A DNA stretch of 32,783 bases. It comes from Candidatus Omnitrophota bacterium. GTDB lineage: Bacteria; Omnitrophota; Gorgyraeia; Gygaellales; Profunditerraquicolaceae. Shown here in pieces: positions 9,238 to 19,616 of this stretch. Each line of letters starts with the position of its first letter. The first letter of the stretch is position 1. The DNA lies in the NCBI GenBank assembly GCA_028717885.1, contig JAQUMX010000015.1, positions 1-32,783 of the forward strand, read 5' to 3'. The notes beneath the pieces were generated by a model, which made no database searches, was not told the DNA's origin, and saw nothing but the letters and a program-made list of their open reading frames with translations. A program made the position numbers and the translations under genes.

Positions 9238-10083
9238 ATGAGTTACTATAAAATATTAGGTTTAGACCGAGAACCATTTTCCACAAGCCCTGACCCGGTA
9301 TTTTTTTATGAGTCAGAAGAGCATAGGGCTGCGCTCATGCGTTTAATGGTAGAGATCAGGTTAAAGCGCGGCTTAAGTTTGATCTTGGGAGATGTGGGCA
9401 CCGGAAAAACTACGCTCTCCAGAAAACTTTTTCATATGCTTAAAGAAAGGGAAGATATCGTATTCCATATGATCCTGGATCCTACTTATGAAACAGAAGA
9501 GCTCTTTCTTGATTCTTTGATCCGCACGTTTAAAATCGATGTTAATCCTGCCACGGCAAATATCCTTGATTACAAAGAAGCAATAAAAAAGTATCTATTC
9601 CAAAAGGGAGTTGAAGAAAACAAAATCGTGGTACTTTTGATTGATGAAGCGCAGAAGTTAAATTTTCTTTCTCTGGAAATCCTGCGCGTCCTGCTTAATT
9701 ACGAAACCAATGAGTTCAAGCTTTTGCAATTGGTATTATTGTCGCAGCTTGAGCTTTTACCGAAATTAAAAGAAATGAAGAACCTGATGGACCGCATTAA
9801 TTTGAAATATGTGCTTAATCCTTTGGACGAATCAGAGACAAAGAAAATGATCGAGTTTAGGCTTACAGCTGCGGGTTATCAGCCGGGAATCGAATTTTTT
9901 GATGATGAAGCAATCCGCGAGATTTATCATTATACTCAAGGCTACCCTAGAAGGATTTCTATGATTTGTCACCATGCGCTGAAGACTTTGGTGATGGAAA
10001 ATAAGAGTATGGTTGATGGCGCATTAATCCGCGGTATCATTGCTAAAGAATCGCAGGTTTTTGCGGAACATAAGGTCGCTTAA
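9238..10083 (+). CDS. ExeA/GspA-like AAA ATPase
   Basis: The 281-residue protein opens with YKILGLDREPFSTSPDP, the usual ExeA N-terminus, followed by Walker A GDVGTGKTT (51-59), Walker B VVLLIDEAQKL (D136, E137), and an arginine-containing C-terminal lid (YTQGYPRRISMICH). ExeA with ExeB helps insert and assemble the secretin of type II secretion through peptidoglycan; here the peptidoglycan-binding C-terminal domain of long ExeA is missing, as in many short homologues. It directly precedes a GspC/PilP-like gene and two secretin genes, which supports a role in assembling that channel. Confidence 0.88.
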   Translation: MSYYKILGLDREPFSTSPDPVFFYESEEHRAALMRLMVEIRLKRGLSLILGDVGTGKTTLSRKLFHMLKEREDIVFHMILDPTYETEELFLDSLIRTFKIDVNPATANILDYKEAIKKYLFQKGVEENKIVVLLIDEAQKLNFLSLEILRVLLNYETNEFKLLQLVLLSQLELLPKLKEMKNLMDRINLKYVLNPLDESETKKMIEFRLTAAGYQPGIEFFDDEAIREIYHYTQGYPRRISMICHHALKTLVMENKSMVDGALIRGIIAKESQVFAEHKVA

Positions 10084-10084
10084 G

Positions 10085-10711
10085 ATGGAAGAAAAAATTA
10101 CTCCTGAAGAGAGGCTGTTGAAGATTATTGAGAATCCGGCAACAGAGAAGCGCAGGATCATTACGCCCGCAGTTAAGCAGAAGTTTTCCCTGAAAAATAT
10201 AAAGGGGATGATCAGCGGTTTTAAGCTGGACAAGGAACTGTTAAAGCGTTTTGATTTAAGGATGGCCACTAAAGTAGCCGCCGTAGCCTGCGTTTGTTTT
10301 ACGTTTTTTTGGATCTTTGATTTTATCAGGAGCGGCATAGCTTTGAATAAGCGTTTCGAAAAATTAGTCGCAGAATCGGCTTCGGCGCAGAATGTCGAAA
10401 AAAATTTGCCTGTTTTGAACGTAGATATGAATGAACTCTCGCAGCAGGTAAGAAGCCGGAATATTTTTTCTTTTGTGCCTACGAGAGCGGTGGCCGGGGA
10501 ATTTACCACAGAGGTGCCGGTAGCAATCACTAATTATAAGCTGGTTGGGATCATGTGGTCGGATAACCCGCAGGCAATGATCGAAGATACTAAAGAACAG
10601 AAGACTTATCTTTTAGGCAATGGAGATCAGTTGGGCCAGGTAAAAGTGAAGAAGATCTTTCGCGACAAGGTAGTGATCGGCAAGGATGAGCAGGAGTGGG
10701 AGTTAAGATGA
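10085..10711 (+). CDS. GspC/PilP-like inner-membrane clamp protein
   Basis: The 208-residue protein has a cytoplasmic basic N-terminus (1-60), one membrane helix (about 63-82) and a periplasmic region ending in a GspC homology-region-like domain: NYKLVGIMWSDNPQAMIEDT, YLLGNGDQLGQVKVKKI, VVIGKDEQEWEL. In type II secretion and type IV pili this domain binds the periplasmic N0 region of the secretin and connects it to the inner membrane. I chose ATG 10085, one base after the ExeA stop; the upstream ATG at 10040 would overlap ExeA by 44 bases. Its stop overlaps the next start as ATGA. No GspE/F/G genes are visible in the window. Confidence 0.8.
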   Translation: MEEKITPEERLLKIIENPATEKRRIITPAVKQKFSLKNIKGMISGFKLDKELLKRFDLRMATKVAAVACVCFTFFWIFDFIRSGIALNKRFEKLVAESASAQNVEKNLPVLNVDMNELSQQVRSRNIFSFVPTRAVAGEFTTEVPVAITNYKLVGIMWSDNPQAMIEDTKEQKTYLLGNGDQLGQVKVKKIFRDKVVIGKDEQEWELR

Positions 10712-12315
10712 GGCGTTTTACCTATATATTAATGGTTTTAGCCCTGCTTACAATGCCGGCGCAGATTTTGGATGCGCAAACAGAGAATCCTGCGCCTATG
10801 CAGCGTATTTCTTTGGACCTGAAAGGTATTGATATAATTGAACTTTTCAGGATCCTTTCTTTAAAAATGGGGGTAACGATTGTCCCTACGAAGAATGTTT
10901 CCGGAAGGATTAATGTTTTTTTGAATAACCTGACTTTGGACGATGCCTTAGATGTGGTTTTGAACAGCCAGGATTTAGCCTGTGAAAAAAGCCCGGGGAT
11001 CATTAACGTAATGACTAGCGATGAATATTTAAAGCTTTACGGCAGGAAATATAATGAAAAACGTAAATTCAACAGCTACAAGCTTAATTACGCCAAGCCT
11101 TCCACGGTTTTTAATGCCTTGGCGCAGGTAAAGTCCGATGTCGGAAAGATTATCGTAGACGAAACTTCCGCTACGATATTTCTAATGGATACTCCGGAGA
11201 GGCTGGTTTTAATGGAAAAAACCATCAAAGACCTTGATCAGGCGCCGGAAACAGCAGTGTTTGATTTGCAATACGCTAAAACCGATGATATTAAGTCTCA
11301 GTTATCCGGAGTAATTACGCCCGGAGCCGGAGAAATGCTGGTGGATAGCCGTTCGACAAGAGTAGTGGTTTCCGACCTTCCGGACAGAATGAAAAAAATT
11401 AAGCGCATCATCAGCGCTTTTGATACGGAAATCCCGCAGGTAGAAATCGAGACTAGGATCGCGGAAATCACCCTTAGAGACGAATACCAGCGGCAGATTA
11501 ATTGGCAGAGGATTTTTGAAGATATACACAACTTAAGCCTTGCAGGTACTTTTCCCGCGTCTCCGTCTTGGTCAGTTTCTCCGGCGCTTTCCGTAGCAAG
11601 TATGCTGATGAGCGTGGGTACCTTGGAAAGCGATAAATATACGGCTGCACTTAAATTTCTGCAGACGCTTGGCGATACCAAAGTGCTTTCTCAGCCGAAG
11701 GTTATAGCTTTGAATAATCAAGAAGCGAAAATTATGGTCGGTTCCCGCGAAGCATATGTAATCCAGAGTTTAAGCCAGGCTACGGCTTCTACGGTTTCCG
11801 CGGAAAATATCCAGTTTATCGATGTAGGCGTTAAGCTCAGCGTTATGCCTACGGTGCATAGAGACGGATTTATAACTTTGAAAATAAAACCGGAAGTGAG
11901 CTCTGTGCGAGAAACTATTACTACTGCTATGGGAAGTATCGTGCCGATTGTAAATACTTCAGAGGTCGATACCGTAGTGAAGGTTAAAGACGGGACAATG
12001 ATCATGATCGGCGGGTTAGTGAAGGAAGATAAGCGCAGCGATACTACCGGTGTGCCCGGTATTGCAAAGACTTTTCTCGGGCCGTTTTTTGGCTCGCGTG
12101 CGACATTAAAGAAGAGAACAGAGATGGTAGTTTTTTTGATCCCGCGTATTATTAAAGGAGATGTCAGCACCACTAAAGAAGATCTGCGTGGTGTAGTTTC
12201 TAAGGACTTGGTTCCTGGATTGGCGGATCATCCCTTAGCAACTGTGCTTCCTAAAGATAATACTGTTTCCGGAATTAACATTCAGCAAAAATTAAAAGGT
12301 CCGAAAGAATATTAA
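10708..12315 (+). CDS. Secretin 1 (GspD/PilQ superfamily)
   Basis: The 535-residue protein has a signal peptide (RFTYILMVLALLTMPAQ, cleavage near residue 24), an STN/N0 domain (ISLDLKGIDIIELFRILS), one or two secretin N domains (SYKLNYAKPSTVFNALAQVK; LQYAKTDDIKSQLSG) and the C-terminal secretin pore domain (VGVKLSVMPTVHRDGFITLK; KVKDGTMIMIGGLVKEDKR; EMVVFLIPRIIKG). The start ATG at 10708 overlaps the previous stop; the in-frame GTG at 10696 is less likely because the signal peptide begins at MRRF. The pore loop reads VPGIAKTFLGPFFGS, a departure from the usual VPxLGxIPxxGxLF. It should form an outer-membrane channel. Confidence 0.92.
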   Translation: MRRFTYILMVLALLTMPAQILDAQTENPAPMQRISLDLKGIDIIELFRILSLKMGVTIVPTKNVSGRINVFLNNLTLDDALDVVLNSQDLACEKSPGIINVMTSDEYLKLYGRKYNEKRKFNSYKLNYAKPSTVFNALAQVKSDVGKIIVDETSATIFLMDTPERLVLMEKTIKDLDQAPETAVFDLQYAKTDDIKSQLSGVITPGAGEMLVDSRSTRVVVSDLPDRMKKIKRIISAFDTEIPQVEIETRIAEITLRDEYQRQINWQRIFEDIHNLSLAGTFPASPSWSVSPALSVASMLMSVGTLESDKYTAALKFLQTLGDTKVLSQPKVIALNNQEAKIMVGSREAYVIQSLSQATASTVSAENIQFIDVGVKLSVMPTVHRDGFITLKIKPEVSSVRETITTAMGSIVPIVNTSEVDTVVKVKDGTMIMIGGLVKEDKRSDTTGVPGIAKTFLGPFFGSRATLKKRTEMVVFLIPRIIKGDVSTTKEDLRGVVSKDLVPGLADHPLATVLPKDNTVSGINIQQKLKGPKEY

Positions 12316-12330
12316 GGAAGGGAAAGATAA

Positions 12331-14448
12331 ATGGAGCATAAGAAAAGGGTCGTATGCGTTTTAGGAGGGGTAATTTTACTGGGAAGCTTAGTTTTTGTTT
12401 CTGCTGAACAGAGCACTTCTACAACAACTGCTTCTACTGCCACGACAGCAGCAAGTAATGCTACTACAACCGGTACTGCTGCCGCGACTACGCCTGCGGC
12501 AACTGCTTCTACGGCCGCAGCAACAACTACGCCTGCTGTTGCTACTCAACCAACTGTGCCAAAAACCGAGCCAAAAGTATTATCTGCCGGGCCGGCGGAA
12601 AGCGGGGCACCTGCTCAAACTCAGGATAACACGGGAGCAGCCGCACAAGATAATCCGCCTCCTCCCTTAGAAAACAATCCTCCTCCTCCGGAAAATCTGA
12701 ATGGACGCCAGGATATACCTGATGAGCCTGGGCAACAGGAACCCATTGAGCGGGTTGAAGAAGGGCAACGTACTGAATCTGCGGCCCCTTTAAATGAGGA
12801 ACAGGTTGCTCAAGGAGTGAAGGTAGATGAATCCCGCCTTTCTTTGGACCTAAAAGGTATTGATATTAACGAGCTTTTTAGAATTCTTTCCTTGAAGATG
12901 GGAGTAACCATTGTCCCAACGAAAAGCGTATCCGGTAGGATTAATATTTTCTTAAATAACCTTTCTTTCGAAGATGCCTTAGAAGTGGTTTTGGTCAGCC
13001 AGGACCTTGCCAGCGAAAGAAAAGGCACAATTATCAATATTATGACCAGCGGAGAATACGAAAAACTTTATGGAAAGAAATTCAATGAGAAAAGAAGATT
13101 TACTAGTTTTAAACTGAAATACGCCAAGCCGTCCACGGTTTTTAACGCTCTCTCGCAGGTAAAGTCGGATATCGGTAAAGTAATCGTTGATGAAGCTACA
13201 GGCACTATACTCTTAATTGATATTCCGGAAAAGTTAGAAAAAATGAAACTAACTGCTAAAGACCTGGATAAGGCCCCGGAAACGGAAATTTTCGATATTA
13301 AATATGCCAAGTCCTCGGATATGAAGACGCATCTTTCCAGCGCGATTACCCAGGGTTCTGGAGAGGTTTTTGTAGATGAACGTTCAAGCAAAGTGGTGAT
13401 TTCGGATTTGCCGGATAAGATGAAAAAAATCGGCAAGATGGTTAAGGCCTTTGATGCGGAAACCAAAGAAGTTTTTATCGAGGCGGAAATTTTACAGATT
13501 ACTTTAAAGAAAGAATACCAGCGCGGCATCAATTGGGAAAAGCTTTTTAAGTCGGCTGACTGGCATAATTTCGACCTTAAAGGCACCTTTGGCGTAAGCC
13601 CTTCCTGGACACCTTCGCCGACGCTGGCTGCTTCCAATGTTCAGCTTAAATCCGGGACATTGGCTACTGATACCTGGACCGAAACATTCCAGTTATTGGA
13701 AACTTTCGGCGATACTAAGATTATTTCTAGTCCTCGCCTGGCAGTAGTAAATAACCAGGAAGCAAAAATCCTTGTTGGTTCCCGTGAAGCTTATGTGACT
13801 CAGTCGCAAAGCCAGGCAGAAACCACCACTGTTACATCAGAGAACGTAGAATTTATTGACGTCGGAGTAAAATTACATATCGTGCCTTCGATCAATGAAG
13901 AGGGTTTTATTACCATGAAAATAAAGCCGGAAGTCAGCTCTGTCCGCGAGACGCTCACAACTTCTTTGAACAGTAAAATCCCAATTGTGGAAACTTCGGA
14001 AGCAGAAACCGTGGTAAAGATTAAAGACGGTTCGATGATCCTGATCGCCGGTTTGATCAAAGAGGATAAACGGCAAGATACCAATGGTATACCATTTTTA
14101 GGGGCTTTACCGGTTATCGGCGGATTTTTTGGCGCGAAGGCTAACCTCGACAAGCGCACGGAAGTAGTAATTTTCATTACTCCGCATATTATCCGGGGCG
14201 ACAACGAAATTGTCGGAGCAGAAGTTGACAGATTGGTCCCTCCTGATATCGCTACCGATGATATAAAACGCACCATTGTTGATTCGATCGTTGCTAAAGA
14301 AGTCGAAGAGAGTATCAAGAAAACTCAACGGGAAGCCAATCCTTTGCGTAATATCCCGCTTTCAGGAGGAAATTCGCCTGTGATGGATGAGCCTATGGTA
14401 TCGGGAACGGATGTGCGCGGGAAAATCAAAGGGTTAAAAAACTATTAA
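12331..14448 (+). CDS. Secretin 2 with Thr/Ala/Pro-rich N-terminal extension
   Basis: The 705-residue protein is a paralogue of secretin 1. In the STN stretch beginning LSLDLKGID, 44 of 52 residues are identical to the neighbour by direct comparison. It has a signal peptide (VCVLGGVILLGSLVFVSA), then about 140 residues of low complexity: Thr/Ala-rich (30-75), acidic and Gln-rich, with PPPP runs near 110-125. STN, secretin N and pore domains follow, and the pore loop IPFLGALPVIGGFFGAKA is canonical. The extension would sit in the periplasm and could span peptidoglycan. The tandem arrangement suggests either mixed multimers or two alternative channels. The C-terminal 80 residues (VDRLVPPDIATDD and onward) could be a pilotin-binding tail. 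Confidence 0.92.
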   Translation: MEHKKRVVCVLGGVILLGSLVFVSAEQSTSTTTASTATTAASNATTTGTAAATTPAATASTAAATTTPAVATQPTVPKTEPKVLSAGPAESGAPAQTQDNTGAAAQDNPPPPLENNPPPPENLNGRQDIPDEPGQQEPIERVEEGQRTESAAPLNEEQVAQGVKVDESRLSLDLKGIDINELFRILSLKMGVTIVPTKSVSGRINIFLNNLSFEDALEVVLVSQDLASERKGTIINIMTSGEYEKLYGKKFNEKRRFTSFKLKYAKPSTVFNALSQVKSDIGKVIVDEATGTILLIDIPEKLEKMKLTAKDLDKAPETEIFDIKYAKSSDMKTHLSSAITQGSGEVFVDERSSKVVISDLPDKMKKIGKMVKAFDAETKEVFIEAEILQITLKKEYQRGINWEKLFKSADWHNFDLKGTFGVSPSWTPSPTLAASNVQLKSGTLATDTWTETFQLLETFGDTKIISSPRLAVVNNQEAKILVGSREAYVTQSQSQAETTTVTSENVEFIDVGVKLHIVPSINEEGFITMKIKPEVSSVRETLTTSLNSKIPIVETSEAETVVKIKDGSMILIAGLIKEDKRQDTNGIPFLGALPVIGGFFGAKANLDKRTEVVIFITPHIIRGDNEIVGAEVDRLVPPDIATDDIKRTIVDSIVAKEVEESIKKTQREANPLRNIPLSGGNSPVMDEPMVSGTDVRGKIKGLKNY

Positions 14449-14460
14449 AAGAGAGGATTC

Positions 14461-15726
14461 ATGAATAATCCTAACGAAAAAAAGGAATCGGAAAAGCCCG
14501 CAGTAGAAAAAGGTTTTAAGTTTGGCCCTGTCTTGGTGTTATTTCTGGCAATAATTTTCGCAGCGAGCGTGGCGTATAGTTTTATGCTTTTTAAAAAAAC
14601 AGAATCCCAGAAAAAAGACCTGGAGCAGCGTTCTTCACAAGAGCAGGAGATCAGGGAAAAAGAATCGATACTGTCCAAAAAACTTATTGAACAAAAAGCT
14701 GAATTGGACAGGCTAAAAGCAGAAAACGAATCCGTGCGCCAGGAAGAGCAAACCAATACTACTCAGGCAAAAGCAATGGCAGATGCAGCTATTAAAGCCG
14801 CGCAGGAGAAAGTAAAGCTGCTTGAGCAGGAAAAAGCTGCGCTCCAGGGAGAATTGAATAAATTAAAAACCGAAAATGCCCTTTTGGCTACGCAACCGAA
14901 AGACCAGCCAAAAACTAAACAGGAAAAGAAAGAAGAGAAGCAGCAGGAGAAAGAAAACAAGGCTGCAAAAGCAGAAGAGGAGCGGCAGTTAAAATTAGCG
15001 GAAAATAAGCAGATTAATGATTTAAAGGCGCAGCTTAGCAAGGTTAAGGAGGAGAATTCCAGGCTTCAAGGAAAAAATAACCAGGCAGAGGCAAGAATTA
15101 AGGAACTGGATAAAGCCACTGAGCAGTTACGTACGGCCAGAAAAGATATCGAAGGGTTAAACCAGAAGCTCGCGAGCCTGAAACAGGCTTCCGATAAGGA
15201 AAAGTCAGATTTGAAAAATTCAAACAGCAAGCTGGAAGATAAAACGGGGACGCTGCAAAGGCTTAATACCCAACTGGAAGACAAAGCCAAAGGCCTGTAT
15301 GAAAAATTACAGACAGCAGATGACACGAAATACCAGTTGAATAATGCCAATAACTTGTTAGATAAGCTTGCCGATGAGCGCAAAGTTTTATTACAGGAAA
15401 TCGATAAGTTAAAAACCCAGGTGAGCGGATTAGAAAAAGAAAAAGCCAGGATATTTGCCGACCAGGGTAATGCCAATATGCAGGCAAAGCTTTTTGAGCA
15501 GGCAATCGATAGTTATGAAACCAGCCTTAAGCTTGATCCGAATAATGCGGAAGTAAATTACCGTTTGGGGCTATTGTATAAACACACCCGCGATGACCCG
15601 CAAAAGTCCGTGGTTTATTTTAGGAAGTACCTGCAGCTTCAGCCCCAAGCAAAGAATAAAAAAGAAGTAGAGTATTTGATTGAGTCCTTATCCCGGAGCG
15701 ATGATTGGGGGGCGGTAAACAGATGA
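14461..15726 (+). CDS. Membrane-anchored coiled-coil TPR protein (largest of three)
   Basis: The 421-residue protein has a single N-terminal membrane helix (about 20-41), a long charged coiled coil (about 45-335, rich in Glu, Lys and Gln, with a lysine-glutamate run near 150-175) and C-terminal TPR units (AKLFEQAIDSYETSLKLDPNNAEVNYRLGLLY and the following pair). The last domain should be periplasmic if the N-terminus is cytoplasmic. It is co-transcribed with the secretins and overlaps the next gene by an ATGA. The same architecture recurs in the next two genes. TPR lipoproteins such as PilF/PilW assist secretin multimerisation, so a scaffold role at the secretin is plausible, but this protein lacks a lipobox. 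Confidence 0.8.
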   Translation: MNNPNEKKESEKPAVEKGFKFGPVLVLFLAIIFAASVAYSFMLFKKTESQKKDLEQRSSQEQEIREKESILSKKLIEQKAELDRLKAENESVRQEEQTNTTQAKAMADAAIKAAQEKVKLLEQEKAALQGELNKLKTENALLATQPKDQPKTKQEKKEEKQQEKENKAAKAEEERQLKLAENKQINDLKAQLSKVKEENSRLQGKNNQAEARIKELDKATEQLRTARKDIEGLNQKLASLKQASDKEKSDLKNSNSKLEDKTGTLQRLNTQLEDKAKGLYEKLQTADDTKYQLNNANNLLDKLADERKVLLQEIDKLKTQVSGLEKEKARIFADQGNANMQAKLFEQAIDSYETSLKLDPNNAEVNYRLGLLYKHTRDDPQKSVVYFRKYLQLQPQAKNKKEVEYLIESLSRSDDWGAVNR

Positions 15727-16310
15727 AAAAGATGAATCCTATCACTTTATTTTTGTTAGTAAGCTGGTTTTCCGTAGCCTTTTTTGCGTTCCTCTATATA
15801 AGTACCCGCATTCAAAACCTGAAATTAAAAAGCACCCTGGCGGCAGAAGCGGAAAAAGTAAAAGTATTATCCGAAGAAAATAATAAATGCCAGGCATTAA
15901 GGGAGGAGGCGGCTAAGTTTCAGAATAGCGCGCTTAATTACCTGGAATGGCAGTTTGTTTTAAAGGAGCAGGTCAGCCAAGCATCGAACCGTTTAAGGCA
16001 GAGGATTAACCAGGTCAGAGAAGTAAAAAAAGACCGGCAGATGCTTAACCTTTTATATTATAACTTAGGGTTAAATGATACCATGGCAGTAAATTTTGAC
16101 GGGGCAATCAAAGCTTTTGAAGAAGCAGTGGATTTGGACCCAAAGGACGCAGACAGTTTCTATAATTTAGGGCTGCTTTATTCGGCATTCCGCCAGAGCC
16201 CGAGCAAGGCAGTGCGTTATTATGAGCAATATTTGAAACTGGTGCCTAAAGGGGCAAAGCCAGATGAAGTTAGAGAGCGGATCGAAATCTTAAAAGGCCG
16301 GAGCAGATAA
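15723..16310 (+). CDS. Membrane-anchored TPR protein (second of three)
   Basis: The 195-residue protein has a membrane helix (about 5-25, ITLFLLVSWFSVAFFAFLYI), a short coiled coil and C-terminal TPRs (LYYNLGLNDTMAVNFDGAIKAF; ADSFYNLGLLYSAF; KAVRYYEQYLKLVP). ATG 15723 was chosen because it forms an ATGA overlap with the upstream stop; the in-frame GTG at 15705 would add glycine-rich residues before the membrane helix. The TPR block aligns with those of the genes on both sides, including an inserted extra turn between repeats, so the three are tandem duplicates that differ mainly in coiled-coil length. Confidence 0.8.
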   Translation: MKKMNPITLFLLVSWFSVAFFAFLYISTRIQNLKLKSTLAAEAEKVKVLSEENNKCQALREEAAKFQNSALNYLEWQFVLKEQVSQASNRLRQRINQVREVKKDRQMLNLLYYNLGLNDTMAVNFDGAIKAFEEAVDLDPKDADSFYNLGLLYSAFRQSPSKAVRYYEQYLKLVPKGAKPDEVRERIEILKGRSR

Positions 16311-17054
16311 ATGGACAAAAAAAGAATAGTTTTGATAATCGCAGGTGTAGGCATATTGGTTTTATTGGGTGTGGCTATTGCTTCTTTTATAAAAGCAGTT
16401 AGCCTAGGCAGGGAACTTACGCAGACTAAACAGTTGCTTACCAAGTCCCAAGAGGAAACAAAGCGTATCCAGGGAGAAAAAGAAAAAGTTGCTAAAGAAA
16501 ATGAAAAGCTCCAATCTGATGCGGTTTCTTACTTGGGGGTAAACAGCCGGTTAGAGAGCGAAAAAGAAAAACTGCAAGCTGCCATTGATGAAAGTAAAAA
16601 GAACCTTGTTAAAAAGGAAGATGAGCTGGAAAGAGCAAAGATTAGTTTGGAGCGCCTGGAAAAAAAAGTGATCCAAGAGGGCAGCTCACGCAAGAATATT
16701 TATGAAAAGGAGAGCACCGAATTAAAGGGCAAAATCAGCTCCCTGGAGGAGACTTTAAAGAAAGAAAGAGGGGTCTATCATTATAATCTGGCAGTGGCGT
16801 TTACCCAGGCAAAGCTTTTTGACGAAGCAATAGATGCTTACGAAAAATCATTGAGCTTTGACCCTAATAACGCGGATGCGCATTATAATTTGGGGTTGCT
16901 TTATACCAGCGCCAGAGGTATACCGGAGCGGGCATTAGAGCATTACCAGGCATACCTTAAGTTGAAGCCAGATGCAGAAGATAAGGATGAGGTAATTGCT
17001 TGGATTGAAAAACTTAAAAATTATGGCCAAATTCAGCCTAGCGGATCCAAATAA
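16311..17054 (+). CDS. Membrane-anchored coiled-coil TPR protein (third of three)
   Basis: The 247-residue protein starts directly after the upstream stop codon. It has a membrane helix (about 5-26, VLIIAGVGILVLLGVAIASF), a coiled coil (about 30-150) and C-terminal TPRs (YNLAVAFTQAKLFDEAIDAYEKS; ADAHYNLGLLYTSA; ALEHYQAYLKLKP). It closely matches its two upstream neighbours in the TPR region. All three probably place TPR platforms at different distances from the inner membrane. I know of no named family with this exact arrangement. Confidence 0.8.
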   Translation: MDKKRIVLIIAGVGILVLLGVAIASFIKAVSLGRELTQTKQLLTKSQEETKRIQGEKEKVAKENEKLQSDAVSYLGVNSRLESEKEKLQAAIDESKKNLVKKEDELERAKISLERLEKKVIQEGSSRKNIYEKESTELKGKISSLEETLKKERGVYHYNLAVAFTQAKLFDEAIDAYEKSLSFDPNNADAHYNLGLLYTSARGIPERALEHYQAYLKLKPDAEDKDEVIAWIEKLKNYGQIQPSGSK

Positions 17055-17114: not shown

Positions 17115-17441
17115 ATGAAGGAAAATCAATTGAAAACAGTGCTTCTTGGTTCAACAGGGGTTCTTGCCCTAGCTTGTGCAGGGTTATTCTTGTTTAATTT
17201 TCAATTAAATAGCCAAATTACCAATTTAAGTAAAAATAAAGAAAAAGAGCTGAATAACAAGGTAGCTAAGGAAAGGGAGCTTATCTGCAGGGATTTAGAA
17301 GAGAAGCATGCAAAAGAAATAACCTCTTATAATGACCTGGCAAAACAACTCGAATCCCAGAAAAATTTAGTAAAAGAACTGGAAAATAAAGCGCAAACAC
17401 AGGCCAGTACCACGCATCCTGCTAAGAGATTGAAAAAGTAA
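17115..17441 (+). CDS. Short membrane coiled-coil protein, paralogous to the tail of the RAYT fusion
   Basis: The 108-residue protein has a membrane helix (about 8-28) and a coiled coil (about 35-95), with no TPR. Residues 43-94 match residues 272-323 of the downstream RAYT fusion protein at 18 of 52 positions without gaps (shared ER..I.R, EK.A, SY..A and ELE.K positions), and the membrane helix stands at a similar distance before them. This looks like a freestanding version of the module attached to the transposase domain. A TTG at 17130 preceded by AAGGA at 17118-17122 is an alternative start. The stop lies inside the spacer of the next promoter. Confidence 0.7.
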   Translation: MKENQLKTVLLGSTGVLALACAGLFLFNFQLNSQITNLSKNKEKELNNKVAKERELICRDLEEKHAKEITSYNDLAKQLESQKNLVKELENKAQTQASTTHPAKRLKK

Positions 17442-17457
17442 GAAAATATGGTATACT
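17430..17457 (+). promoter_or_regulatory. Promoter of the riboswitch-controlled operon
   Basis: TTGAAA (17430-17435), a 16-base spacer and TATACT (17452-17457) precede the aptamer by about 20 bases. A start near 17464 gives a transcript that begins almost with the riboswitch, so the switch has its own promoter and does not depend only on read-through from the secretin operon. Confidence 0.65.
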
Positions 17458-17476: not shown

Positions 17477-17568
17477 AATTGATCCGAAAGGGCAAACCCT
17501 GAGCAATCAGGGGACGCAAAGTCGTGCGTCCGTAATACGGATAGGCAGACTACCGAAGATGCGCAATT
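17477..17568 (+). promoter_or_regulatory. Cyclic di-GMP-I (GEMM-I) riboswitch aptamer
   Basis: The conserved GEMM-I core is plain: AAAGGGCAAACC, then hairpin CCCTGA-GCAA-TCAGGG with a GNRA tetraloop, then GGGACGCAAAG, a second arm containing TCCGTAATACGGA, and the closing TAGGCAGACTACCGA. P1 can form between AATTG.ATC (17477-17484) and GAT...CAATT (17558-17568). This class binds the second messenger c-di-GMP and usually controls motility, adhesion or surface-protein genes. It is followed by a terminator and the RAYT-protease-giant-protein operon. The aptamer class is recognised from consensus memory, not from a covariance search. Confidence 0.92.
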
Positions 17569-17578
17569 ATAAAGAATG

Positions 17579-17616
17579 AATCTCAGGTAGTTAAACCTAT
17601 CCTGAGATTTTTTTTT
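17579..17616 (+). terminator. Expression-platform terminator of the c-di-GMP riboswitch
   Basis: AATCTCAGG (17579-17587) pairs with CCTGAGATT (17601-17609), extended by TAG/CTA, and the T-run is 17608-17616. Its 5' arm contains GGTAGTT (17586-17592), which can pair instead with GACTACC (17548-17554) in the 3' side of the aptamer. Ligand binding would hold GACTACC in the aptamer and let the terminator form, so the predicted behaviour is an OFF switch. Confidence 0.88.
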
Positions 17617-17654
17617 GAGCAAAATCAAAAGTACCACGCAAGAAGGAGTAAAAA

Positions 17655-18671
17655 ATGACCAGAATACCACGAACCCATGTTGAAGGAGCGCTGGTTTACG
17701 TAACTTCGCGTGGAGATAACAATGAAAATATTTTTAAAGATGATTCTGACTATTATACATACCTTGAATTATTAAAAAAGTATAAGAATCAATATGGATT
17801 TAAATTATTTGCATTTTGTTTTTTGCCCAATCATTTACATTTGCTTATGGAACTAAAAGAAGGCTTAACTACCTCAGAAATTATGCATGACTTAAATGCG
17901 AATTACACGAAATATTTTAATGGCAAGCATGAAAGAAAAGGCCACCTTTTTCAGGAGAGGCATAAGCTGGTCCTGGTAGAAAAAGACGCCTATATTTTTC
18001 CGGCAATGAATTATATCCATTTAAATCCGCTGGCACTGGGGTTAACTAATGACCTGAAGGATTATAAGTATAGTAGTTACCTATATTATATAGGCGGTAA
18101 CCCGCAATTAGAGATGGAGGCGGAGATCAGAGAGATAAAATCCCGGCTTTCGGAATACTCTCTTTCTGATTATGCAAAATATTTAGCCGGCATCCCGAAG
18201 GAGCAGATGGAATCTTTAGGAAAAGAATTAAATAAGAAGACGGCCATTGGCTCGCAGGATTTTATTAAAAAGGTCGAGCAATTGAGCGCGGAATTGGAAA
18301 CCAAGCCTGCATCGCAGGGAAGCAGCGAAGTGGTTAAAGATGCTGTACACGGAAAATTTATCAGGATCGCCATATCCGGGGTCGTGATCTTAGGGATTTT
18401 TACCCTGTATCTTTATGCCAATTCCATGAGGCTTAAGAAAAATTTCACCAGGCAATTAGAGCAGAAGGAAAGCGAAATAGACAAGCGTTTAAAGGAAGAG
18501 CGTAATGCAATTATCCGCGGGGTCAATGAGAAGCAAGCCGCGGATATGGTTTCTTACCAGGCAATGGCTGTGCGTATGGAAAAAGAAAAACAGCGCGCGG
18601 CAGAGCTGGAAGAGAAGTTAAAGAGCGCGAAGGCGGGTTCTGTGCAGAATACGCCTAAGAAGGCACAATAA
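17655..18671 (+). CDS. RAYT-type Y1/HUH transposase domain fused to a membrane coiled-coil tail
   Basis: Residues 1-150 are a REP-associated tyrosine transposase domain (Y1_Tnp): VTSRGDNNENIF, the HUH pair in FLPNHLHLLM (H60, H62), KYFNGKHERKGHLFQERH, and the probable catalytic tyrosine Y120 in NYIHLNPLALGL. All key residues are present. Residues 150-230 form a linker, 237-255 a membrane helix, and 257-328 a coiled coil matching the small upstream protein. A strong AGAAGGAG lies at 17641-17648. Ordinary RAYTs are soluble and about 150-250 residues long; the membrane tail is the oddity. No transposon ends are visible. It could bind a DNA or RNA hairpin at the membrane instead of moving DNA. 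Confidence 0.9.
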   Translation: MTRIPRTHVEGALVYVTSRGDNNENIFKDDSDYYTYLELLKKYKNQYGFKLFAFCFLPNHLHLLMELKEGLTTSEIMHDLNANYTKYFNGKHERKGHLFQERHKLVLVEKDAYIFPAMNYIHLNPLALGLTNDLKDYKYSSYLYYIGGNPQLEMEAEIREIKSRLSEYSLSDYAKYLAGIPKEQMESLGKELNKKTAIGSQDFIKKVEQLSAELETKPASQGSSEVVKDAVHGKFIRIAISGVVILGIFTLYLYANSMRLKKNFTRQLEQKESEIDKRLKEERNAIIRGVNEKQAADMVSYQAMAVRMEKEKQRAAELEEKLKSAKAGSVQNTPKKAQ

Positions 18672-18683
18672 AGAGAGGCTACC

Positions 18684-19616
18684 ATGAGGGGCACCCAACG
18701 CTTACAACAAAATGAAATTTTACGAAAAGTGCTTTTAAGAGAGCACTTATTAGCTGCCTTGTCTTTATTGCTTTTTATAGCGCTCGTAGTTCTGGTAGCG
18801 AACCCTTTCTCTTGCCAGATAAAAAGAGGGTTAAGGCAGTTGCATTTAGTTACGCAAAATTTGCCCGCTGAAAATCAGGTTTATCAGGTAATCGACCGGC
18901 TGGAATATTCCGGTTTGCAGATGTTAAAAGAGAACCATGTAAGTATTGCGGTTAATTTCAACAAGGGAACCTGGGTTTTGCGGGATATTAACCAATTCGA
19001 TGAACAGGGGAATTTTGTTTTGGATGCAGGCAAGTATGGGACTTGCGGAGAATTGGCTGCTTATACATACGGGAAAATAAAACCGCTTTTGTCAGGTAAT
19101 TATGACCTGGCTTTTGTCAAGGCTTCGCAGTCAGGGTATTTTCTTTATCCGGTAGCAGGCCACATTGTAGTAAAAATTTCACCGAAGGTTACATCCGAGA
19201 ATTCGGCAACCTATATAGTGGATCCGGCTTTTCATAAATACGGGCCGATAGGAGAATTTGAAGATTACTATTTCCAGGAGGAAATGGGGGAATTGCCTTT
19301 TATACAGGACAGGCAGAAGGATATCGAGCTTGATATTGGGACATTGTTCCCTTTATTGATCAGGCAGCAGCATCTTTTAGGGGTCATGGTAATAGATAAC
19401 CTGGGCAAGTTCGATAAAGATAATTATATGTTCGCTCTTATAGTGAATAAAAAGCATAATTTTAGCGGCAAGCCGATTTTTATGCTGCGCAATAATAATG
19501 GCTCTGAAGAATACAGGGAAGAAAATACTGATTTACGCAGGAAGGTTTTAAACGATAAAGAATATGCGGATCTAAAGAGCAGGGTCTTTAAATTATTTAG
19601 GGAGGTAGAGAGATGA
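18684..19616 (+). CDS. Membrane-anchored transglutaminase-like cysteine protease (LapG-like in logic)
   Basis: The 310-residue protein has one N-terminal membrane helix (about 22-42) and an extracytoplasmic domain with a transglutaminase-fold triad: C121 in KYGTCGELAAY, H160 in PVAGHIVVKI and D180 in ATYIVDPAFH. Spacings are 39 and 20 residues; in LapG the triad C135, H172, D189 has spacings of 37 and 17. The family includes proteases, transglutaminases and amidases, so proteolysis is an inference. The gene is 12 bases after the RAYT fusion, and its stop overlaps the giant gene's start as ATGA. That tight coupling suggests the giant protein is its substrate. I do not recognise a named family. 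Confidence 0.72.
   Translation: MRGTQRLQQNEILRKVLLREHLLAALSLLLFIALVVLVANPFSCQIKRGLRQLHLVTQNLPAENQVYQVIDRLEYSGLQMLKENHVSIAVNFNKGTWVLRDINQFDEQGNFVLDAGKYGTCGELAAYTYGKIKPLLSGNYDLAFVKASQSGYFLYPVAGHIVVKISPKVTSENSATYIVDPAFHKYGPIGEFEDYYFQEEMGELPFIQDRQKDIELDIGTLFPLLIRQQHLLGVMVIDNLGKFDKDNYMFALIVNKKHNFSGKPIFMLRNNNGSEEYREENTDLRRKVLNDKEYADLKSRVFKLFREVER

Follow-up and report, generated by a model that had tools for sequence, protein, structure and literature searches.

A RAYT transposase domain with a membrane anchor predicted in c-di-GMP-riboswitch operons for giant surface proteins across Omnitrophota

Background

What would a transposase domain do in a protein held in the membrane? The question is raised by one gene of the window, as we call the whole stretch of 32,783 nucleotides from a Candidatus Omnitrophota bacterium that was analysed here. 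A preliminary description of this DNA had proposed that the gene product is a RAYT/Y1 domain fused to a membrane helix and a coiled coil, domesticated inside a riboswitch-controlled operon as a tethered protein that binds or nicks hairpins. The operon continues into a giant ORF. Such ORFs, genes of the same kind in the same phylum, are a recognised puzzle of the Omnitrophota (PMC10066038), and neither a regulator, a riboswitch nor a RAYT is mentioned in the passages found there. The display of giant adhesins is governed by c-di-GMP in other bacteria, e.g. in the Lap system (PMC5231407, PMC13090378), whereas in the Omnitrophota operon the c-di-GMP control would be exerted by a riboswitch and accompanied by a secretin cluster. 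Our literature search returned nothing relevant on Omnitrophota transposases with riboswitches, RAYTs with riboswitches or RAYT-transmembrane fusions, and no earlier description of the family, here named RAYT-TM, was found in the literature searched.

The RAYT-TM protein and its gene neighbourhood

The features of the locus are collected in Table 1. Pfam assigned residues 23-122 of the window protein to Y1_Tnp (44.5 bits, cut-off 23), and the NCBIfam model REP_Tyr_transpos (NF047646) gave 75.5 bits, just below its equivalog cut-off of 80. The residues H60, H62 and Y120 are present and N124 completes the class-2 'Y---NP' motif, characteristic of class-2 TnpA-Y1 proteins and in which the N is expected to be the third metal ligand (PMC6006769). 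There is a single hydrophobic segment (KD 2.19 from residue 235). The AlphaFold2 model (pLDDT 88) predicts a HUH fold followed by one long helix (225-327) that includes this segment, and the solved structure closest to the model is 4er8, the TnpA_REP of E. coli with a REP hairpin (E 9.6e-9, TM 0.71 of the target). Sequence searches of the PDB with the full window protein or with the fusion profile gave no match, and 4er8 was reached by a sequence profile only when ordinary RAYTs were included. Pfam gave Y1_Tnp only and no winged-helix DNA-binding domain in the window protein. Altogether, Pfam, hydropathy and AlphaFold2 agree on the architecture originally described.

Table 1 Features of the RAYT-TM locus in the window
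Feature	Positions	Strand	Evidence or remark
AAA ATPase (9238-10083) and GspC-like protein (10040-10711)	9238-10711	+	Pfam, NCBIfam
Two secretin genes of the adjoining secretion cluster	10696-14448	+	PF00263, PF03958
Three membrane-helix/coiled-coil/TPR proteins	14461-17054	+	
108 aa protein with membrane helix and coiled coil, homologue of the C-terminal half of RAYT-TM	17115-17441	+	E 4e-13
Second, degenerate palindrome copy CCAGTACCACGCA	17404-17416	+	Upstream of promoter and riboswitch
Candidate promoter TTGAAA-16-TATACT	17430-17457	+	Consensus match only
c-di-GMP-I (GGC type) riboswitch aptamer	17482-17558	+	RF03167, E 3.7e-12
Riboswitch terminator hairpin with T-tract	17580-17617	+	
Leader palindrome AAAAGTACCACGCA, local variant of AAAAGTGCCAGGCAC	17627-17640	+	
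RAYT-TM-coiled-coil gene, 338 aa	17655-18671	+	ORF call, Pfam, hydropathy, AlphaFold2
RAYT/Y1 HUH domain, residues 1-150	17655-18104	+	Pfam, alignment
Codons of H60/H62; Y120; N124	17832-17840; 18012-18014; 18024-18026	+	Inside the RAYT/Y1 domain
Linker, residues 151-224, conserved GS..F motif (G199, S200, F203)	18105-18326	+	
Predicted membrane helix, about residues 233-255	18351-18419	+	Hydropathy, AlphaFold2
C-terminal coiled coil, about residues 256-327, predicted periplasmic	18420-18635	+	
310 aa membrane-anchored protein, Cys...His...Asp pattern	18684-19616	+	Transglutaminase-like by eye only
Giant surface protein, at least 4390 aa, hydrophobic signal-like N-terminal segment	19613-32782	+	Open at contig end

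The part that follows the membrane helix has two forms in the family, a coiled coil as in the window or a beta-rich domain (residues 296-396 in the model of the L085 protein). Each form also has stand-alone counterparts, encoded in the gene clusters of the fusions (the 108 aa protein of the window, L046, L049 and further loci). Many of the stand-alone beta-type proteins begin with a segment resembling a signal peptide, and the C-terminal part of the fusion is therefore probably periplasmic. The predicted topology follows from these separate exported homologues, the charge rule (24 vs 15) pointing clearly to neither side. No Pfam family over cut-off was found for the beta-type domain or its stand-alone homologue, and Foldseek returned only weak matches for it (LolA-like and other barrels).

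The fusion gene is followed in nearly all cases by a gene for a protein of ~150 aa and, after it, by a giant ORF running off the available DNA. The giant ORF was present wherever the contig was long enough, with the exceptions of L086 and L109. Upstream, many of the fusion loci contain an AAA ATPase, a GspC-like protein, secretins and membrane-anchored TPR/coiled-coil proteins. The 310 aa protein of the window had no match in Pfam or NCBIfam; its motifs YGTCGELAAY, GHIVVK and YIVDPAF might belong to a transglutaminase-like protease.

Distribution of the fusion

The architecture of the window protein, with a linker leading from the RAYT domain into one membrane helix and a C-terminal module, is shown by at least 46 sequences from Omnitrophota and the neighbouring Ratteibacteria, and many full-length homologues of the window protein were found in the search of 147 relatives. 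A scan of GTDB species genomes provided 80 loci. The record titles of the best 44 (L070-L112 and L120) name Omnitrophota, one Ratteibacteria and three other labels ('Planctomycetales', 'uncultured bacterium' and 'Lokiarchaeota'). The 'Lokiarchaeota' contig (L109, MBAA01000064.1) carries an Omnitrophota-type RAYT locus with its riboswitch and is probably mis-binned. The membrane anchoring claimed for the window protein extends to the family, with a helix at residues 229-265 (KD peak 1.67-2.74) in 42 of the 44 fetched fusion loci; the two exceptions are L096, cut by the contig end, and L109, where the peak is weak (KD 1.37). In the 36 non-fusion RAYT loci, which come mostly from other phyla and include few Omnitrophota, the KD peak was at most 1.11.

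The 46 fusion sequences were set apart from the other RAYT domains by a single branch in a tree of 81 (support 86/87, found in 87% of bootstraps). Outside this clade, L057 (the same gene as L028; 8083-8910, G036) is a RAYT with a membrane helix at the same place in the operon and without a detected riboswitch; a separate fusion event or rapid evolution within the fusion clade may account for it. The same fusion is shared by more than 40 loci in independently assembled genomes, mostly metagenome assemblies in which related genomes are not independent and several contigs end near the RAYT gene. Recurring in so many loci, the fusion gene is not an assembly artefact, and an isolated occurrence or the erroneous joining of two genes, which would have spoken against the preliminary description, could be ruled out. 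The domestication that had been suggested is supported as well. No near-identical second copy of the gene was found in the window's genome (G000). One further RAYT is present there (L001, G000:C21, about 880-1600), anchorless, with HUH intact and flanked by GGGGACGTTCCCC-type palindromes. The fusion family is RAYT by fold and descent, without two of the usual traits, dispersed REPs and the small soluble form.

Riboswitch control

The view of the gene as a riboswitch-controlled member of a surface-protein operon is sustained by the RF03167 riboswitch and the terminator upstream and the giant ORF downstream. The covariance model of c-di-GMP-I-GGC scored 60.7 bits at the window locus, above the gathering score of 59, and since there are only eight to nine c-di-GMP-I riboswitches in the 1.47 Mb of the window's genome, a chance occurrence at this locus is excluded. 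At the Rfam gathering threshold the riboswitch was found in 18 of the first 20 fusion loci. The model built here (R1) detected it in 44 of 45 fusion loci, the window included, against 0 of 36 anchorless RAYT loci, with the reservation that some of these loci or their twins had served to train R1, which leaves the Rfam count as the independent one. The riboswitch lies directly upstream of the RAYT gene in 42 fusion loci; in L072 and L101 it separates the RAYT gene from the giant gene, and the R1 scan found none in L110. A terminator accompanies it almost throughout. The candidate promoter matches were not in excess over shuffled sequences. Modelled folding of the leaders gave no consistent ON/OFF polarity across loci, and the window leader taken alone resembled an OFF switch.

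Several of the other c-di-GMP-I riboswitches of the window's genome (L062-L068) precede genes of signal-peptide proteins, one of them with GDYEDYGDY repeats. The riboswitch at 7733-7818 of L088 (the L050 locus) has an A instead of the G of the others in AAGAGCAAAC, a change at what we take to be the position separating cGAMP from c-di-GMP binders. In the terminator stems of L078-L081, L099, L101 and L109, CCAGGCA...TGCCTGG is frequent, similar to the two halves of the leader palindrome described below.

Catalytic residues and conserved core

The check that had been suggested, conservation of H60, H62 and Y120 in orthologues, gave a divided picture. The tetrad H60/H62/Y120/N124 is intact in 23 of the 46 fusion proteins, including that of the window, and broken in the other 23, vs 36 intact out of 36 anchorless RAYTs in the same alignment. 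The state of the tetrad changed at least five times on the tree, and it was lost without loss of the anchor, the riboswitch or the palindromes. The positions relaxed in the fusions (15, 19, 20, 57, 59, 60, 62, 120, 124 and 125) are located around the active site. Positions 32, 84, 89, 96-99, 102, 122 and 141 remain conserved, with T85 and K86 turning invariant, and D32, Y84, K86, N89, G96, R102 and S141 are invariant across fusions. The leader palindromes were preserved despite HUH loss or broken catalysis in L076, L077, L088, L089, L097, L100, L104 and L107. Because the tetrad is broken in half of the family while the palindromes persist in such loci, nicking or cutting is not the selected function. 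Nicking as a conserved role, one of the two activities initially contemplated, was consequently discarded, and hairpin binding would be the simplest alternative.

The leader palindrome

One to three copies of the short palindrome AAAAGTGCCAGGCAC were found between the terminator and the start codon in the leaders of the fusion loci. The copy of the window, GTACCACGCA (17627-17640), is recognisable, with a stem only partly paired (G-A and A-C mismatches). The extra copy upstream of the promoter and riboswitch has the same layout in L071, L097, L100, L104, L107 and L033. A weight-matrix scan gave 94 sites at most 450 nt upstream of the start codon (46 loci), some of the weak ones being the riboswitch terminators themselves, vs 43 mostly weak sites in the other ~600 kb. 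Among sites of at least 14 bits, 73 were in sense orientation and 4 opposite; standard pairs occupied 274 of 292 stem cells (94%), the loop was CAG or CAC in 72 of 73, and an A-T compensatory change in the stem was seen in one clade only.

A count over 147 whole genomes gave 19 occurrences of the exact 14-mer AAAGTGCCAGGCAC and 0 of its reversed control. Since 16 of the 19 occurrences are at RAYT-TM leaders, the palindrome is not a dispersed REP in the fusion genomes, and a dispersed REP system could be ruled out there. The local variant AAAAGTACCACGCA showed no clear excess in G000, and none of the other c-di-GMP riboswitch loci of this genome carries the palindrome. A search of the host genome for REP-like palindromes had been advised; they are present at the operon leader but not spread over the genome. 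Similarly, the reported lack of transposon ends holds for mobile ends, but not in the sense of a locus free of REP-type elements, given the conserved palindromes of the leaders. In G137, a genome with anchorless RAYTs, a RAYT whose residues are intact is preceded at ~43 nt by the related AGGTGCCAGGCACC, and more copies are found at several dispersed sites, some in REPIN-like pairs, which ties the palindrome to RAYTs independently. Two of its intergenic regions (L161 and L162) contain REPIN-like pairs of the form AAAGTGCCTGGCACC...GGGTGCCTGGCACTTT.

The near restriction of the REP-type palindrome to the leader of this operon supports the hairpin-binding role that had been proposed, the link between the RAYT domain and the palindrome being, at the level of sequence, one of association. 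Furthermore, in L072 and L101 the palindromes are beside the riboswitch and none is found at the RAYT start. As the sites stay with the riboswitch and the giant gene, the target of the RAYT-TM protein would be more than its own gene, namely the giant-protein unit.

Possible function of RAYT-TM

RAYT-TM is most likely a domesticated hairpin-binding protein that would link the leader of the giant-protein operon to the export machinery, and its domain looks like a reader of a hairpin in the leader of its own operon rather than a mover of DNA. A single fusion to a membrane-anchored module from a secretin-type export cluster would have turned the RAYT transposase domain into an immobile host protein. 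The cytoplasmic RAYT domain would bind the palindrome of the leader in its hairpin form, as RNA or as one strand of DNA, leaving it uncut, and the C-terminal part would contact the export machinery across the membrane. In this way the protein would keep the transcript or gene of the giant protein tied to the export site, or tune expression to the export capacity, and the riboswitch would decide whether the operon is transcribed. A link of DNA or RNA to the secretion site, which the preliminary description had offered as a possibility, is plausible. That all three elements hold together, the domain on the palindrome, contact of the C-terminal part with the export cluster and transcription gated by the riboswitch, we consider slightly on the probable side. 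In a narrower version RAYT-TM would be an mRNA anchor that grips the hairpins of the 5' leader and holds the giant-protein transcript at the export machine, with synthesis at the export site, which is possible but rather doubtful.

The nature of the ligand bears directly on the alternatives. The sense orientation and the conservation of the loop favour an RNA or single-strand hairpin as candidate ligand, and we lean towards RNA or ssDNA over dsDNA as the target of the RAYT domain. Both traits are unusual for a symmetric operator, and most sites lie downstream of the terminator and near the start codon. They argue against a membrane-anchored transcription regulator of the ToxR/CadC kind, in which the RAYT domain would bind the palindrome as dsDNA and the periplasmic part would sense the state of export or of the envelope. 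We see this as unlikely, even if some copies suit DNA binding better than mRNA binding by their position: they lie upstream of promoters in the clade of the window (17404 in the window itself), in L072 one abuts or overlaps the -35 box TTGACA of the riboswitch-giant promoter, and in L110 one is at the presumed transcription start. The tandem spacings (20-23, 30-32, 43, 53 and 64) fall close to multiples of 10-10.5 (R 0.6 for 12 distinct values) and also weakly hint at DNA. ToxR and CadC are one-component regulators with a cytoplasmic winged-helix domain, one membrane helix and a periplasmic module. RAYT-TM resembles them in having a predicted cytoplasmic nucleic-acid-binding domain, one membrane helix and a periplasmic module, but with the RAYT fold in place of the winged helix.

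Another explanation makes RAYT-TM a structural component of the export apparatus, with the RAYT fold serving only as a protein-protein scaffold and the palindromes being leftovers of an ancestral REP arrangement. Its constant place beside the secretin cluster, the C-terminal modules shared with that cluster and the palindromes also found upstream of ordinary RAYT genes would fit, but leftovers would hardly persist throughout families of the phylum, frequently as two copies, or stay with the riboswitch where the RAYT gene lies apart (L072 and L101), and we find this distinctly improbable. An active ssDNA nickase or transposase mobilising or processing leader elements is very improbable: the window and 22 relatives keep the four catalytic residues and the fold matches TnpA_REP, but the repeated tetrad losses left anchor, riboswitch and palindromes in place, and the fusion-host genomes have no dispersed copies of the 14-mer. 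Catalytic decay in half of the clade might also suggest a selfish RAYT hitch-hiking in the operon, an idea to which we give hardly any credence considering the mostly intact reading frames, the invariant non-catalytic residues, the conserved operon order and the single fusion clade.

Comparison with known systems

With RAYT/TnpA_REP (class 2 of the TnpA-Y1 superfamily, PMC6006769; 4er8) the fusion family shares the HUH/Y1 fold, the Y---NP motif and a REP-type palindrome near the gene. It differs in the added membrane anchor, periplasmic module and riboswitch control, in the dispensable catalytic residues and in a palindrome confined to one operon leader; a term search of PMC6006769 gave no mention of an anchor, a leader-confined palindrome or riboswitch control for RAYTs. 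The Y1 HUH fold is also that of the IS200/IS605 TnpA proteins (IS608, ISDra2), but no mobile element with ends, tnpB or near-identical multiple copies was seen here, and the operon context is fixed over more than 40 loci. The nearest precedent is provided by TldR, nuclease-dead TnpB-derived RNA-guided repressors (PMC13418256), in which an IS200/IS605-related protein likewise turned into a regulator of surface structures with loss of catalysis. TldR are, in contrast, derived from TnpB, RNA-guided and soluble, and lack the hairpin-in-leader arrangement.

Conclusions

Judging from the sequences, a transposase-derived domain with a predicted membrane anchor is built into a c-di-GMP-riboswitch operon for giant surface proteins across Omnitrophota. 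A large set of the giant ORFs of this phylum thereby gains a common control locus, where a second-messenger riboswitch stands together with a dedicated secretin cluster and with a domesticated transposase and its likely binding site. A host can apparently recruit an entire REP-transposase pair, the hairpin as well as the protein, for a function of its own, and the RAYT-TM operon is a concrete case for testing whether leaders are recognised by membrane-tethered proteins in bacteria. Should RAYT-TM prove to be an mRNA anchor, this would be a new kind of system, with a transposase domain converted into an mRNA-localisation factor of bacteria.
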